Shown piece by piece: positions 34,412 through 40,780 of a DNA stretch of 64,000 nt. Position 1 is the first letter of the stretch. Each line of letters starts with the position of its first letter. The notes under the pieces were generated by a model. The model searched no databases. It was not told the origin of the DNA and saw only the letters and a program-made list of their open reading frames with translations. This DNA comes from Pseudomonadota bacterium (GTDB lineage: Bacteria; Bdellovibrionota; Bdellovibrionia; Bdellovibrionales; JACTMU01): NCBI GenBank assembly GCA_014584465.1, contig JACTMU010000014.1:62001-126000 (forward strand), given 5' to 3'. The position numbers were made by a program, and so were the translations under genes.

Positions 34412-35782
34412 TCAACCTCGATGCCAGGCTTTTGGCTGCAAGAAAGTGTCGATGCCCAGGTAAGAGAGAGTGACGCCAATTCCAGACCCCTTGCGTCCAG
34501 TCCATGGGAGTTCAGGAGTCACACGGTCACAACAGTTCCAGTACACCGTGCCCGAATTAAGCTGGGAGAGGACTCGCTCAGCACGCTTTTCATCTTTTGT
34601 GTAGATCCCACAGGTCAATCCGTAAGAGGTGTCATTCATCAGTGATATGGCCTCTTGATCGTCTCGAACTTTTTGGACGCAAACGAGGGGGCCAAAGGAC
34701 TCCTCCCTCATCACCCTCATCTTGTGGTTGACCTTAGTAAGAAGCGTCGGTTCGAAGTAGTTTCCGGGGCCCTTGACTCGATGGCCGCCCAACTCCAGAT
34801 GAGCTCCCTTTTTGAGGGCATCTCGAATCTGAGATTCAATGATCTTGATCTGTGGGGCTCTCGTCAGCGGTCCAATGTAGGTTGTCTCCATGTTTGGATC
34901 ACCGATGACAAAGCCACTGATGGTTCGTTTCAAAGCCTCTACGAATTGAGTGTGAATGGCTTTATGAACGTAGATGCGTTCAACAGAGCAACATCCTTGG
35001 CCTGTATTGTAGAATGCACCATCAGCAACAGCCGTCGCAGAGGACTCAACATCCACATCTTCACAAACATAAATGGGGTCTTTCCCTCCCAGTTCCAGTT
35101 GAACCTTCATCAATCGATGGGCCGATTGAGCAGCAATCTTCGCTCCGGTCGCATTGGATCCCGTGAAGAAAATGGCATGAATGGGTTGCTGCAAGAGTTT
35201 TTGGCCAATTGGACCGCCTCCTAAGATCAAACCAAAGAGATTTTTTGGGAGTCCCGATTTTTGAAAGAGTTTTTCGATTTCTACGCCTGTTAATGAGGCC
35301 CACTCCGAAGGCTTGTAGAGAACAGCGTTGCCCGTGAGCAGTGCGGGAACAAAGACATTCACACCCACAAGATAGGGATAGTTCCATGCTGAAATGTTCG
35401 CAACAACCCCGAGGGGCTCAAAGGTGATCTTTTGCTGGTCGTCGATGACCACGGGTTTAAGGCGAGCTTCAGTAGACTTTAGAAAAAAATCAATTCGCTT
35501 AAGGGCCGATCGAATTTCGTTTCGAGACTGTACAATGGGTTTACCCACTTCCGAAGTTAAAACATGAGCCAAACGCTCAAGATTTTCGGTCACAAGGTCG
35601 CGAAATTTTGCAATGACGGAAACTCGTTCTGTCCAAGGCGATAGACTCCAGGCCTTTTGAGCTTGCTCAGCAAGACGGAATTTTCTTTCTATGGAGGAGG
35701 CAGTATCTGCCCTAAGCTTCTTCAAGATCTTTCCGGTTGCGGGATTTAAAACATTAAGAACCTTTTCGTTTTTGGATTTCAT
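34412..35782 (-). CDS. NAD(P)-dependent aldehyde dehydrogenase
   Basis: The 456-aa soluble enzyme oxidises an aldehyde to a carboxylate. Catalytic Cys264 (NTGQGCCS) and general-base Glu230 (QLELGGKDP) are present, as are SAWNYPYLVG and the cofactor segment FFTGSNATGAKIA. It is slightly shorter than typical 480-500-aa members. It overlaps the C26 hydrolase gene by 29 bp and is the last gene of a six-gene operon. In the proposed route it plays the part PuuC has in putrescine breakdown. Confidence 0.9.
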   Translation of the reverse strand: MKSKNEKVLNVLNPATGKILKKLRADTASSIERKFRLAEQAQKAWSLSPWTERVSVIAKFRDLVTENLERLAHVLTSEVGKPIVQSRNEIRSALKRIDFFLKSTEARLKPVVIDDQQKITFEPLGVVANISAWNYPYLVGVNVFVPALLTGNAVLYKPSEWASLTGVEIEKLFQKSGLPKNLFGLILGGGPIGQKLLQQPIHAIFFTGSNATGAKIAAQSAHRLMKVQLELGGKDPIYVCEDVDVESSATAVADGAFYNTGQGCCSVERIYVHKAIHTQFVEALKRTISGFVIGDPNMETTYIGPLTRAPQIKIIESQIRDALKKGAHLELGGHRVKGPGNYFEPTLLTKVNHKMRVMREESFGPLVCVQKVRDDQEAISLMNDTSYGLTCGIYTKDEKRAERVLSQLNSGTVYWNCCDRVTPELPWTGRKGSGIGVTLSYLGIDTFLQPKAWHRG

Positions 35783-36512
35783 TGAAAAACTCCTTTAAGA
35801 GAGGTCGCGCATCAAGTAGAGAGGGATCGTTTGGATCCTGAAATTCTGGGTGCCACTGAACTCCAACAACAAACGGGTGTCGAATGGACGAAAAGGCCTC
35901 AACGATCCCATCTTCCTTCGAACGTGCCTCTATTTTTAAAAGGTCCCCCAAACGATCGATCGCTTGGTGGTGAACCGAGTTGACCTTCACTTCACGATCT
36001 TTCGGAGAAAAGATCTGGTCCAAACGACCCCCTGGCTCGATCACCACCTGATGAAAAAGTTGATCATAGACATTCCAATCCCGATGGCAGAGAGCCTTTG
36101 GTTTCTGAGTTGGAATATCCTGAAAAAGCGTTCCACCGAAAGCTACGTTTAGAACCTGAGCTCCCCGGCACAGACCAAGTACAGGTTTGTTCTCTTTCAG
36201 GCAGAGCTGAATCAATTCGATCTCAAGTTGGTCGCGAATGGCATCTCCGGACCACTCTGGTTTCAAAGGTGTTTGGCCATACGACGGTGGTGCGACGTCA
36301 GATCCCCCCTGCAGAAGAAGTCCATCGATTTCTGAAACGAATTTTTCTAATGAGATCTTTCCGTGAGATGGAATGATCAAGACAGGAAGGGCACCTTCTC
36401 TCATGATCCATTGGGCCGTGGACTCTTCCAAATAATAAAGAGTCTTTCCCTTAAAAACAGCCCGTGTAAAGTCCTTGTGAAAAAAACAACATGGAAGGCC
36501 GATTCGAAACAT
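35754..36512 (-). CDS. Class-I glutamine amidotransferase-like gamma-glutamyl hydrolase (peptidase C26, PuuD-like)
   Basis: The 252-aa product starts at MFRIGLPCCF; an earlier in-frame start at 36611 would overlap the dehydrogenase gene heavily. It has the C26 triad: Cys115 in LGLCRGAQVLNVAFGGTLFQD, His221 and Glu223 in GVQWHPEF. The LLLQGGSDVAP oxyanion region is also typical of PuuD, which hydrolyses gamma-glutamyl-GABA to glutamate and GABA. It lies 2 bp after the alcohol dehydrogenase gene and 29 bp into the aldehyde dehydrogenase gene. Confidence 0.87.
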   Translation of the reverse strand: MFRIGLPCCFFHKDFTRAVFKGKTLYYLEESTAQWIMREGALPVLIIPSHGKISLEKFVSEIDGLLLQGGSDVAPPSYGQTPLKPEWSGDAIRDQLEIELIQLCLKENKPVLGLCRGAQVLNVAFGGTLFQDIPTQKPKALCHRDWNVYDQLFHQVVIEPGGRLDQIFSPKDREVKVNSVHHQAIDRLGDLLKIEARSKEDGIVEAFSSIRHPFVVGVQWHPEFQDPNDPSLLDARPLLKEFFNEIQKRKGS

Positions 36513-36514
36513 AG

Positions 36515-37702
36515 CTATTTCTTCTTTCGGTTTCTTGATGTGCCAAGTGCAATTGTAAAAATCTTGTGAAGATCTTTTTTCAAAACCGGTCGTGGATTGC
36601 ATTGGTGGCATCCATCACTAAAGGCCACATCAACCAGTTGATCGAGATGGTCTTTTGTAACGTTTGCCTCAGAAAGAAAAGTTGGAATCTCAATCCGTTT
36701 CTTGAGTTGATGAATCCATCGAATAAAACTCTGTCCATCTTTAAGACCAATGCGAGTCGCGATGGCCTTGAACTTTTGTGCTTGACCCTTGAAATTAAAC
36801 TCCATGGTGTAGGGTAGGAGAATGCCATTGGCAAGTCCATGATGAAGGTCACAAACAGTAGAGAGAGCGTGAGCACAGGAGTGGGTAACCCCTAAACCCT
36901 TTTGAAAGGCAACAGCACCCATCATTGCGGCATGAAGCATATCCATACGGGCGGCAAGGTAGACATCATCATCGACGCCTTTTGTATGTTTCTTGGCGCC
37001 GACAGTGGCGATGGCCAAAGAACGCGCAACCATAGTGATTCCCTCAAGGGCAATTCCGTCGCAAAGAGGATGAACACCTTTGGCAAGATAGGCCTCAAGG
37101 AGGTGAGTTAAAGCATCGAGGCCGGTCGTTGCCATTATGCTTGCAGGAAGATCTAAAGTCAAAGTTGGGTCAAGGTAGACTTTGATGGGCATAAGTTTGG
37201 GTGAGAAGAGAATTTTCTTAATCTTGGTTTGGTCATCTGAGATCACAGAACTTCGTCCGACCTCGCTTCCTGTTCCTGCCGTAGTGGGGATCGCAATGAT
37301 CGGCGGTATGGTTTGATCAATACTTTTAGCACCGGGACGATCTTCATAGTCAAAAAGATCTCCCTTATGGTGAATGAGGATCGCAATTGCTTTTGCAACG
37401 TCAATGGCAGCCCCACCTCCAATGCCCACGATGCAGTCGGCAAACTGAACGCGATAGGAATCGGCGCCTGCTTCAACCTGCTTCTTTGTAGGATTTCCCC
37501 AAACCTCAGAAAAGAGTGTTGGGGTTAGATCTGCCTTCTTAAGGGAGTCAATCAATTGAGTTAGAAAAGACATCTTTGCAACACCACGATCTGTGACAAT
37601 CAGGGGGCGATGAAGACCTTGATCTTTTAGAAAAGAGGGAAGTTGCTCCGAAGCCCCTTTGCCCGCAGTGATCTTTGTTGGAAACTGATATTCGGATATC
37701 AT
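36515..37702 (-). CDS. Iron-containing alcohol dehydrogenase
   Basis: The 395-aa group III dehydrogenase has the nucleotide site VGIGGGAAIDVAKA and IPTTAGTGSEVGRSSV. The metal ligands lie in TTGLDALTHLLEAY, GVTHSCAHALS and DLHHGLANGILLPY. It interconverts an alcohol and an aldehyde with NAD(P). In the operon it sits between a glutamate ligase and a gamma-glutamyl hydrolase, where it could oxidise a gamma-glutamyl amino alcohol. The 30-bp gap to the GCS2 gene supports cotranscription. Confidence 0.92.
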   Translation of the reverse strand: MISEYQFPTKITAGKGASEQLPSFLKDQGLHRPLIVTDRGVAKMSFLTQLIDSLKKADLTPTLFSEVWGNPTKKQVEAGADSYRVQFADCIVGIGGGAAIDVAKAIAILIHHKGDLFDYEDRPGAKSIDQTIPPIIAIPTTAGTGSEVGRSSVISDDQTKIKKILFSPKLMPIKVYLDPTLTLDLPASIMATTGLDALTHLLEAYLAKGVHPLCDGIALEGITMVARSLAIATVGAKKHTKGVDDDVYLAARMDMLHAAMMGAVAFQKGLGVTHSCAHALSTVCDLHHGLANGILLPYTMEFNFKGQAQKFKAIATRIGLKDGQSFIRWIHQLKKRIEIPTFLSEANVTKDHLDQLVDVAFSDGCHQCNPRPVLKKDLHKIFTIALGTSRNRKKK

Positions 37703-37732
37703 AAATTTCTCCTTAGACTCAGGATGGCCTAG

Positions 37733-39028
37733 TTAGTGCGAAGTTGGTTTGAACGCGATTGTATCCAAAAGATGATCCCAACCCTTGCCAAAAGCTTTGA
37801 CTGCGTTTTGACCAGGATTTTCGAGTCTCCGTAAACGCTGTTTGCAGGGCTCTAAGAAGATCTCTTCCCCCATTTTTCGTTGTTTTAGACCTATTTCGGC
37901 CATATCAATGAGATTGCTCAGAAAATTCGTTTTGGGTTCTGGGGCGTTAAGTCCATAGAGTGCGACTTCCTTAAGATAGGCATACATGATAGACCAGTAG
38001 TTCGCGCCTAGAGATTCCCGAATGAAACGATGGGCCGCCTCTTCTGCTTCGATCAAACCAAGTGACAGGGCTGCAACAGACATCGAGCTTTGCTGAGGCT
38101 GTTGACAACAGGGGCGAATCTCGAGTGTGCCATGGTGAGCTCTTGCTCGTGCGTGATTCCAAAGGTAGTGGTCGTGAACAAGAAAAGCCTCAAAGGGGTC
38201 TGGAGCTTGGTTCACAATATCTTGAAAAGGTCGATCTACCTCGAAGTAGGATCGTGAATCTCTCAGGATCAAACATCTCTTGCTCATCAATCTCTTGATG
38301 AATTCCGTAAGATCAAAGAAGGGTGTGGGAATCATGCCAAAAGATTCATCTCTAAATTGTTCGCTCATCAGCTTCTCGCGTGATGAGATGGCGGATTCCT
38401 TTCCACCAATGACCGAAGAGTTCCCGCAAAGCGAAACCAGCACAGGGGCAATGAGATTTCCATAGTTAATCATATTTAGGACTTCATCTCGGCAGAGGTT
38501 GACATGGACCTGATCGCTTGCAGTCATTGTAAAAAGAAGCCATCGCTCTCCAAGGATTCGATGAAGAAGTTGGTATCTCTGCTTTGACACCATGTTTGAT
38601 GGATCCATGTCGCTTTTGGGTTGAATTCCAAAGCCAAGCAAACGAAGTCCAGCATCGGTCACTCTTTTCAAGAGATGATCGATTGCCTGGTTCATAATGT
38701 TTTGCAGTTCAAAGAGGTTGTTGCAAGGTCTACTGATGATCTCAATCGTTCCCTTTCCCACCTCCGATGAGTACGAAAAATCTTTTCCTTCGAGACCTAC
38801 GAGGAACTCAGTAGACCCATAGTCAAAGCAGGTTCGAAATTGAATGGCTCCGTCATTCAACAGGGGCCACAAGGTCGAAATGTCTGCCATTTTTCCATTT
38901 TGATGGACTACGGGAAATTCCGCTTCACGCCCAATAGTTCGCTGAGGTTTTGGGCGACCTACCGGGAATCGATTCAAAAATGTTTGTAAAATCTGCGATG
39001 ATTCATCCAAGCTTGAAACTCCCAGCAC
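37733..39028 (-). CDS. GCS2-family glutamate-cysteine ligase-like enzyme
   Basis: The 431-aa protein resembles the ATP-grasp-unrelated GCS2 family (plant-type/EgtA-like gamma-glutamyl ligases). Features are TIGREAEFPVV at the start, GKGTIEIISRPCNNLFEL, GFGIQPKSD, TASDQVHVNLCRDEV and ARARAHHGTLEIRPCCQQP. The family joins the gamma-carboxyl of glutamate to an amine, usually cysteine. No glutathione synthetase or ergothioneine gene is nearby; the neighbours are an alcohol dehydrogenase, a gamma-glutamyl hydrolase and an aldehyde dehydrogenase. A non-cysteine amine substrate is therefore plausible. Confidence 0.85.
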   Translation of the reverse strand: MLGVSSLDESSQILQTFLNRFPVGRPKPQRTIGREAEFPVVHQNGKMADISTLWPLLNDGAIQFRTCFDYGSTEFLVGLEGKDFSYSSEVGKGTIEIISRPCNNLFELQNIMNQAIDHLLKRVTDAGLRLLGFGIQPKSDMDPSNMVSKQRYQLLHRILGERWLLFTMTASDQVHVNLCRDEVLNMINYGNLIAPVLVSLCGNSSVIGGKESAISSREKLMSEQFRDESFGMIPTPFFDLTEFIKRLMSKRCLILRDSRSYFEVDRPFQDIVNQAPDPFEAFLVHDHYLWNHARARAHHGTLEIRPCCQQPQQSSMSVAALSLGLIEAEEAAHRFIRESLGANYWSIMYAYLKEVALYGLNAPEPKTNFLSNLIDMAEIGLKQRKMGEEIFLEPCKQRLRRLENPGQNAVKAFGKGWDHLLDTIAFKPTSH

Positions 39029-39061
39029 TTGCGCTTCAAAAAATCTCTGTCCCGCCTGCCA

Positions 39062-39808
39062 CTAGTTAAATTTATCTATGATCTTAGGTAAGTCACGAAG
39101 ATCTTTGCAAAGAGCTGAAGCATAGGAGCTCATGCTTCCTCGGTCGATCACTCCCGTGAATAAGATAGCCTTCATGCCAAGTGCCATGGGGCCAGTAACG
39201 TCATTGGACTCCCGATCTCCGACATGGATCATCTCATTTAAGGGGACGTTGAGGATCTCTGAAGCCCTTCTGAATACGATAGGGTCAGGTTTTGATGCGC
39301 CGACTTCATCTGAAAAGACAAGTCCCGAGAACAGATGATCAAGACCCCAATGAGCAAGAAGCTTACGAATCCCTCTCCCTGGGGTATGAATCGTGTCTGA
39401 GATCAAACACAACTTGTACCTCTTTGCGAGAATCTCGAGGGTTTCCAGGGCAAAGGAGACACAATCTGGAGGGATCTCGGTCTCCATAGATTCGATTTCA
39501 TTCACAATTTTACCAAAATTCGGTGTAGGCTTTATCTTTAGGTGGAGGTAGAGTTCGAGGAACCGATCCTGAACCGTGGGTGTTTTGTGTTGAGTCTTCC
39601 ATTGCATTTGGAACTTTTCATTTGCAAACTTAAATGCCTCACGAACCTTTTCAGGAGAGAGTTGGGGGTGAACCCGGCCAATTTCATCGAGAAAGAGTTG
39701 TTCCCGAGCACCACTTTTAGAGAGTAAGCCGAGATTTTTTCTCTTTGGTTCGTCTGAATCATCTATTGCAAGGGTATCCCAGAAATCAAATGTAACTGCT
39801 TTAATCAT
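39062..39808 (-). CDS. HAD-superfamily (subfamily IA) hydrolase
   Basis: The 248-aa soluble protein has motif I VTFDFWDTL (nucleophile Asp8), motif II LCLISDT, a lysine in SDEVGASKPDP and motif IV HVGDRESNDV. The usual acid/base aspartate two residues after the nucleophile is replaced by Trp, as in dehalogenase-like or some divergent HAD enzymes, so phosphatase activity is not assured. It lies 9 bp downstream of mscS and 33 bp upstream of the ligase gene, within the operon. Confidence 0.85.
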   Translation of the reverse strand: MIKAVTFDFWDTLAIDDSDEPKRKNLGLLSKSGAREQLFLDEIGRVHPQLSPEKVREAFKFANEKFQMQWKTQHKTPTVQDRFLELYLHLKIKPTPNFGKIVNEIESMETEIPPDCVSFALETLEILAKRYKLCLISDTIHTPGRGIRKLLAHWGLDHLFSGLVFSDEVGASKPDPIVFRRASEILNVPLNEMIHVGDRESNDVTGPMALGMKAILFTGVIDRGSMSSYASALCKDLRDLPKIIDKFN

Positions 39809-39817
39809 GTTGCCCCA

Positions 39818-40780
39818 TTAAGGTGAGCCCTCCGGCTGTTTTTGCCATTCAATCTTCAAGGGCTCACTCGTCGATCCCACAACAAGTGTTCGATAGGGAA
39901 ACGGAATCTCGATCCCCTCATCATCAAAGGTCCTTTTGATTCTTCTTAAGAACTCTCTACCCACATTCCACTGTTCACTTGGTTGAGTTTTGATCCGTCC
40001 CTTAATGACCACGCTGGAATCACCAAAGCTGTCCAGACCAAATATTTCGATCTCTTCAAGAATCCTTGATTCAAAATCAGGATCCTTTCTAAGTTGCTCG
40101 CCAACCCCTCGGATGACCGAGCTCACTCGGTCCACATCTTCCTTGTAGGCAATGCCGATTTCAAAGACATAGGCGGACCATTGATAAGTCTTGTTGGCTA
40201 AGGTGTTGATTGTGCCGTTAGGGAAAACGTGAACGGTTCCCGTGAGATCCCTAATTGAAACTGTACGAAAATTCACCGACTCCACCAGTCCTCCGGTGCC
40301 ATTGATCACTACGACGTCCCCAACGCGAACTTGATTTTCAAGCAACATAAAGAAGCCCGAAATGATATCTCGTACAAGATTTTGAGCACCAAAACCAATT
40401 GCCAAACCTGCGATCCCGGCACTGGCGAGAAGTGGGCCGATCTCCAAACCTGTTTCGCCTAAAATCACAAGTCCACCAACGACCCATAGGGCCGATAAAA
40501 TGGCTCGCTTCAGGAGGCGAAAAAGTGTTTCGACTCTTTTTTGTGCCTCAACGGGGGAGCCTCCAAGGAGGTTGCTCTTTGCAACAACACGACTTTCCGC
40601 CCGATTCATCGCAAAGCGAATGGCCCTCGAAACTAGCCAGACGACCAGAACAATAAGAGAAATCCTCAAGGAGGCCTCAAGAATTCGGTCCCATGGAATC
40701 TGGTTGATCGTCTTGATGATAAGATCCAACATAATAGGGGTAGTTTTAACATATTCTTTTGTGAGATCAAACATTTGCAA
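39818..40780 (-). CDS. mscS: MscS-family mechanosensitive channel
   Basis: The 320-aa inner-membrane protein has three N-terminal helices. The pore helix region reads LLASAGIAGLAIGFGAQNLVRDIISGFFMLLENQVRVGDVV, the hallmark of MscS (shown here only to locate the beta domain after it); NGTGGLVESVNFRTVSIRD follows. It releases solutes on osmotic downshock. It is the first gene of the operon with the HAD, ligase and dehydrogenase genes, only 9 bp before the next start, so one promoter upstream of 40780 probably serves all six. Confidence 0.93.
   Translation of the reverse strand: MQMFDLTKEYVKTTPIMLDLIIKTINQIPWDRILEASLRISLIVLVVWLVSRAIRFAMNRAESRVVAKSNLLGGSPVEAQKRVETLFRLLKRAILSALWVVGGLVILGETGLEIGPLLASAGIAGLAIGFGAQNLVRDIISGFFMLLENQVRVGDVVVINGTGGLVESVNFRTVSIRDLTGTVHVFPNGTINTLANKTYQWSAYVFEIGIAYKEDVDRVSSVIRGVGEQLRKDPDFESRILEEIEIFGLDSFGDSSVVIKGRIKTQPSEQWNVGREFLRRIKRTFDDEGIEIPFPYRTLVVGSTSEPLKIEWQKQPEGSP

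Follow-up and report, generated by a model that had tools for sequence, protein, structure and literature searches.

A predicted ethanolamine gamma-glutamylation operon in Bdellovibrionota with a HAD-GCS2 pair in place of the glutamine-synthetase-type ligase

The window, a stretch of 64 000 nucleotides, carries a run of genes for an MscS-type channel, a HAD-superfamily hydrolase, a GCS2-family ligase, an iron alcohol dehydrogenase (Fe-ADH), a peptidase C26-type hydrolase and an aldehyde dehydrogenase (ALDH) (Table 1). All six families were confirmed by Pfam, and for GCS2, Fe-ADH, C26 and ALDH no NCBIfam model gave a name above its cut-off. An earlier note on this DNA had described the six genes as co-directional with spacings of 9, 33, 30 and 2 bp and a 29 bp overlap; the shared direction was confirmed, all six genes lying on the minus strand between 40780 and 34412, and the spacings are identical. 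The mechanical reading frame of C26 opens at 36611. Its start by homology is the internal ATG at 36512 ('MFRIGLPCCFF'), which leaves a 2 bp gap to the Fe-ADH gene and yields a protein whose alignment with the relative in genome G004, described below, begins at the first residues. A promoter scan was uninformative, with fewer sites than in shuffled sequences, the GC content does not indicate recent foreign DNA, and no ethanolamine transporter was found among the neighbouring ORFs.

Table 1. Genes of the cluster, in order of transcription.
Feature	Position	Strand	Remarks
MscS-type channel	39818..40780	-	PF00924; upstream of operon, not a conserved member
HAD-superfamily hydrolase, GCS2 partner	39062..39808	-	PF00702/PF13419
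GCS2-family amide ligase, predicted gamma-glutamyl-ethanolamide synthetase	37733..39028	-	PF04107, 63.3 bits (gathering cut-off 21); GTG start
Fe-ADH, predicted gamma-glutamyl-ethanolamide dehydrogenase	36515..37702	-	PF00465 + PF25137
Peptidase C26/PuuD-like hydrolase, predicted gamma-glutamyl-glycine hydrolase	35754..36512	-	PF07722, 200 bits
ALDH, predicted gamma-glutamyl-aminoacetaldehyde dehydrogenase	34412..35782	-	PF00171, 440 bits

The synteny of GCS2, Fe-ADH, C26 and ALDH that the note had proposed to look for in related genomes is repeated in G004, a Bdellovibrionia MAG (JAUICD010000029.1) that belongs to another family of the order that includes the window genome. In this genome, the HAD, GCS2, Fe-ADH, C26 and ALDH genes stand in an order identical to that of the window, with protein identities of 44, 34, 52, 49 and 55%, respectively. 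Co-conservation of six genes therefore holds for these five and fails for MscS, which is missing from the G004 cluster and from the ORFs listed at two other loci (L166 and L168). The upstream neighbours in G004 are tatD-, holB- and tmk-like; the tatD-like gene lies directly before the HAD gene, and MscS was thus rejected as an operon member.

The candidate metal ligands of the Fe-ADH (D196, H200, H274 and H288) and the catalytic Cys-His-Glu residues of C26 (C115, H221 and E223) are conserved. When plasmids were searched by tBLASTn, the window Fe-ADH and ALDH had a set of loci in common among their top matches, and these loci are clusters of a glutamine-synthetase-family ligase (GS), ALDH and Fe-ADH in Legionella lytica, Paracoccus, Ruegeria, Photobacterium and Salipiger. 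Identity to the enzymes of GS clusters is about 35–40% for Fe-ADH and 33–38% for ALDH. The Paracoccus and Ruegeria B32 loci (L096/L097) have the same gene order as the Phaeobacter ethanolamine operon, namely RpiR, amidohydrolase, TRAP transporter, GS, ALDH and Fe-ADH (PMC10132767). An ALDH tree, built on a limited outgroup sample with two very long branches left out and controls added, places the window and G004 in one clade (100/100) with the proteobacterial GS-cluster ALDHs, and nine others, including PuuC, BetB, GabD, AldA and AldB, fall outside this clade. By this tree for ALDH and the one described below for Fe-ADH, the Fe-ADH and ALDH of the window are orthologous to the dehydrogenases of the gamma-glutamyl-ethanolamide pathway.

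Within the phylum of the window, the ALDH clade is present in 59 of 369 genomes at the threshold used, and 20 of its loci were inspected. Twelve show GS-FeADH-C26-ALDH, the order of the window, and one further locus shows GS-FeADH-ALDH. Among the other seven, two have GS in a different arrangement together with a Legionella-type amidotransferase, two start at a contig end within the cluster, two have ALDH alone and one is the G320 operon discussed below. Identities of the phylum operons to the window, taken only where the query concerned gave the best match, are 45–55% for Fe-ADH, 40–56% for C26 and 49–59% for ALDH, and the C26 of the window holds the same slot as that of the GS operons. A permease adjoins five of the 13 GS operons; all three that were scored (L164, 413 bits; L170, 404 bits; L183, 437 bits) pass the 382-bit cut-off of TIGR00908, the curated ethanolamine permease model, as does the permease of the Photobacterium locus L099 (553 bits). 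In the Fe-ADH tree, the window and G004 are nested among the GS-operon enzymes of the phylum (clade 98/95), which in turn join the proteobacterial GS-cluster enzymes at 92/80. The ALDH tree with phylum sequences likewise places them inside the GS-operon members, in a 15-row sub-clade supported at 95/85. Since the window and G004 fall inside the GS-operon members, the GS form of the operon is, on this sample and as judged from these trees, ancestral in the phylum. The recurrence of both arrangements, with HAD-GCS2 or with GS ahead of FeADH-C26-ALDH, is more than chance. Separately, four genomes of the phylum (G062:C70, G070:C37, G185:C7 and G186:C410) have an ALDH of this clade that is well conserved except for a single in-frame stop, reflecting either assembly error or decay.

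GCS2 is found in just two of the 369 phylum genomes, the window genome (G000) and G004, in both cases with HAD and in the GS slot. A query with the operon-type GS scores 700–1065 bits in three GS-operon genomes; its best match in the window genome is a partial GS at 87 bits, presumably the housekeeping GS, and in G004 it reaches 24 bits. Since no operon-type GS is left and HAD-GCS2 occupies its slot, the ligase gene was most likely replaced in place, a non-orthologous displacement within a known pathway. The GxExE metal/ATP motif of GCS2 (G33-E35-E37) is invariant, and the nearest profile in the PDB is plant glutamate-cysteine ligase, so that a Cys-like substrate is conceivable from the sequence by itself; an AlphaFold model from ten sequences was poor (pLDDT 61). 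The note had called GCS2 unrelated to the PuuA-type GS; this does not hold, as the two have a common glutamine-synthetase fold and GxExE motif (PMC2588565), and the swap was thus one between distant relatives. YbdK, EgtA and plant glutamate-cysteine ligase share with the window GCS2 the PF04107 domain carrying this motif, whereas the window protein lies below all NCBIfam cut-offs and is predicted to use an amino alcohol, not cysteine. Elsewhere in the window genome (contig C10, L001:396-3764, minus strand), genes for a RimK-like ATP-grasp protein, a YbdK-type GCS2 and an N-formylglutamate amidohydrolase stand in a row, a second amide-ligase module.

The core of the earlier reading, in which a gamma-glutamyl maker and remover surround two dehydrogenases and act on an amino alcohol, is well supported. 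The pathway itself is not new: a GS-type ligase, Fe-ADH, ALDH and amidohydrolase for ethanolamine have already been described (PMC10132767), as has a related cluster (PMC6529630). The gamma-glutamyl-ethanolamide route is known from Phaeobacter MED193, Chromohalobacter salexigens and Agrobacterium, with the enzymes ETAGA, GETADH, GAADDH and GGAH; the Phaeobacter operon proteins are induced on phosphatidylethanolamine, and the binding protein has a Kd of ~8 µM for ethanolamine (PMC10132767). The window shares with these systems the four-step logic, the homologous Fe-ADH and ALDH, and the clustering of ligase, ALDH, Fe-ADH and hydrolase. It differs in four respects. First, the ligase slot holds GCS2 instead of a GS-family enzyme. 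Second, the hydrolase is C26 rather than an N-formylglutamate amidohydrolase type or another class-I amidotransferase. Third, no TRAP transporter or permease adjoins the operon. Finally, the HAD is present in the window operon and not in the Phaeobacter-type route. The GlnA4 cluster of Streptomyces coelicolor follows the same chemistry, in which ethanolamine is glutamylated and oxidized twice, and glycine and glutamate are released; however, it uses a GS-family ligase and a short-chain dehydrogenase in place of GCS2 and Fe-ADH, and only the GlnA4 step has been characterized biochemically (PMC6529630). The Puu pathway of Escherichia coli also proceeds by glutamylation, oxidation and hydrolysis, and the window C26 is 37% identical to PuuD. 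In contrast to the window ligase, PuuA is a GS-family enzyme. PuuB is an amine oxidase, for which the window cluster has Fe-ADH instead, and PuuC lies outside the ALDH clade; a Puu-like putrescine route was therefore rejected. Fe-ADH is a usual second enzyme of the ethanolamine route, so Puu is the wrong yardstick for this cluster.

We assign a probability of about 0.8 to the reading that the five genes at 39808–34412 on the minus strand form an ethanolamine gamma-glutamylation operon in which the ancestral GS ligase was replaced in place by an Anaerolineae-type HAD-GCS2 pair. The ligase would join ethanolamine and glutamate at the expense of ATP to give gamma-glutamyl-ethanolamide, Fe-ADH would oxidize this to gamma-glutamyl-aminoacetaldehyde and ALDH would convert the aldehyde to gamma-glutamyl-glycine, from which C26 would release glutamate and glycine. 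In the ancestral phylum operon, a GS-family ligase would perform the first step, which in the window lineage would have passed to HAD-GCS2 at the same position. The HAD would probably free the amino alcohol from phosphoethanolamine or trim a phosphorylated product. We infer each of the GCS2 reaction, the substrate ethanolamine and the HAD role. In this operon, the product of GCS2 is very probably a gamma-glutamyl amino alcohol with or without a phosphate group, and the amino alcohol used is, with good likelihood, ethanolamine or phosphoethanolamine. Chances are about even that the HAD dephosphorylates either the ligase substrate or the ligase product; these three gradings are judgements and were not computed. 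The conversion of ethanolamine to gamma-Glu-Gly, one scenario of the earlier note, is the best substrate call, with TIGR00908-passing permeases beside the orthologous operons. No EutB (ethanolamine ammonia-lyase) was found in the draft assemblies of the window and G004 genomes, so that, as far as such assemblies allow, these genomes may have no ethanolamine route besides this operon.

It is very improbable that GCS2 is a glutamate-cysteine ligase for glutathione or a related thiol that sits in the operon incidentally: the Pfam family name and the plant enzyme as best PDB relative favour this, but the window and G004 genomes each have a dedicated GshA of family PF08886 at another locus (425 and 403 bits, respectively), GCS2 stands precisely in the GS slot of orthologous operons with no operon-type GS left, and the arrangement is repeated in G004. 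Both genomes also have a glutathione-synthetase-type ATP-grasp match. Since the separate GshA covers glutathione, glutathione synthesis by the operon was rejected, in agreement with the note.

The window HAD is 40–52% identical to the GCS2-adjoining HADs of G004 and Caldilineaceae. It retains the nucleophile Asp, motif II, the Lys and motif IV; motif I reads DFWDT, with Trp for the second Asp throughout the aligned or listed members, and thus departs from the phosphatase pattern DxDx[T/V]. With the other elements kept despite this Trp, a phosphatase role appears plausible. A HAD of the same family occurs in the FeADH-ALDH-HAD-GATase operon of G320 (L168:5016-9191, minus strand), in whose genome neither operon-type GS nor GCS2 was detected. 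The HAD is therefore not strictly tied to GCS2, and the G320 operon is, by its gene content, an independent link of the HAD to the ethanolamine pathway.

Outside the phylum, the search of genome contigs found GCS2 at 16 Caldilineaceae or Litorilinea loci, and within the class Anaerolineae (Chloroflexota) it is present in 37 of 396 genomes. Of the 36 distinct Anaerolineae loci with readable flanks, about 34 have HAD directly upstream of GCS2 (exceptions, L021 and L094); many of these loci are mutually close relatives, which lowers the count of independent events. Since HAD-GCS2 is a conserved Anaerolineae pair, it was probably recruited to the operon as a unit. In trees, the window HAD falls among Anaerolineae proteins and the G004 proteins lie on long branches. 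A search of Anaerolineae genomes gave no clear Fe-ADH ortholog, and in the first two Caldilineaceae genomes of the cobD type to be searched (G060 and G061), no Fe-ADH homolog passed an E value of 1e-40. The Anaerolineae GCS2 group nearest the window in the tree (L088-L092, 85/83) lies near genes for a large FAD/GcvT demethylase-like protein and for an ABC transporter that weakly matches 2-aminoethylphosphonate binding; three of the loci also have an ALDH. GS-family genes lie within ~7 kb of HAD-GCS2 at L074, L076, L079, L081 and L083; at L083, two of them flank the pair on both sides and pass the GlnA cut-off.

Most Caldilineaceae loci carry a CobD-like PLP enzyme directly 5' of HAD-GCS2 (e.g. 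L012:5978-7120, plus strand), ~25–50 bp upstream of HAD, which scores 262 bits as a Thr-phosphate decarboxylase and 203 as HisC (cut-off 290). Starting from Ser-P or Thr-P, such a gene set could yield a gamma-glutamyl amino alcohol. This adjacency was rejected as proof of substrate: the G060 copy is the best CobD candidate of its genome, the next-best match being a HisC, and G060 also has CbiB, so the enzyme may serve cobalamin. Two Vibrio plasmid loci (L070:3443-11498 on V. tubiashii p251, and L071) carry genes for ATP-grasp, MFS, ATP-grasp-like, GHMP kinase, CobD-like, GCS2 and SHMT proteins, which resembles a small biosynthetic pathway with a phosphorylated beta-hydroxy amino acid as intermediate. 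Amino-alcohol phosphates, in keeping with the predicted substrate class, could arise in either context.

These contexts bear on two alternatives to free ethanolamine as the substrate of the window ligase. First, as a variant of the ethanolamine reading, GCS2 may glutamylate phosphoethanolamine and the HAD then dephosphorylate gamma-glutamyl-phosphoethanolamide, a route without free ethanolamine. The near inseparability of HAD and GCS2 (~34 Anaerolineae loci, G004 and the window), the Caldilineaceae order CobD-like-HAD-GCS2, which would supply a phosphorylated amine, and the lack of an adjoining ethanolamine transporter in the window all point this way; however, G320 has the HAD without GCS2, and we consider this variant unlikely. 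Second, and somewhat less likely again, the same chemistry may act on a different amine (3-aminopropanol, 4-aminobutanol, 1-amino-2-propanol or their phosphates), with beta-alanine, GABA or similar as product. A substrate shift could accompany a ligase swap, and the CobD-like neighbours of GCS2 relatives in Caldilineaceae, together with the GHMP kinase and CobD-like genes on Vibrio plasmids, suggest amino-alcohol phosphates more widely. Against this, the two dehydrogenases have their orthologs in operons with ethanolamine permeases, and 1-amino-2-propanol is excluded for the full route, as ALDH requires a primary alcohol upstream. With somewhat less than even confidence, we also propose that HAD-GCS2 is a distinct Anaerolineae amide-ligase module that turns phosphorylated amino alcohols into gamma-glutamyl amino alcohols, that it was taken up by Bdellovibrionota in one or two independent events in place of the ethanolamine-operon GS, and that the Caldilineaceae product is an undescribed metabolite derived from Ser-P or Thr-P.

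The novelty of the window operon is confined to the ligase step, where GCS2 with its HAD partner fills the GS slot. The dehydrogenase step has already been exchanged among families, with a short-chain dehydrogenase for Fe-ADH in Streptomyces (PMC6529630) and probably in Meiothermus, and the hydrolase step varies among the formylglutamate-amidohydrolase type, a PRK05665-type amidotransferase and C26. In the described cases of the ethanolamine route that we found, the ligase was GS every time, and searches of open-access literature found nothing relevant on a GCS2-type ethanolamine ligase. Thus, in this modular pathway the ligase would be as open to displacement as the enzymes of the other steps. 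A family whose members are annotated throughout as glutamate-cysteine ligases would gain a specific alternative reaction, gamma-glutamyl-ethanolamide synthesis, since GCS2 replaces in place a GS ligase whose Streptomyces and Phaeobacter relatives are assigned to ethanolamine. This reaction also offers a possible chemistry for the HAD-GCS2 pair that is conserved in Anaerolineae.
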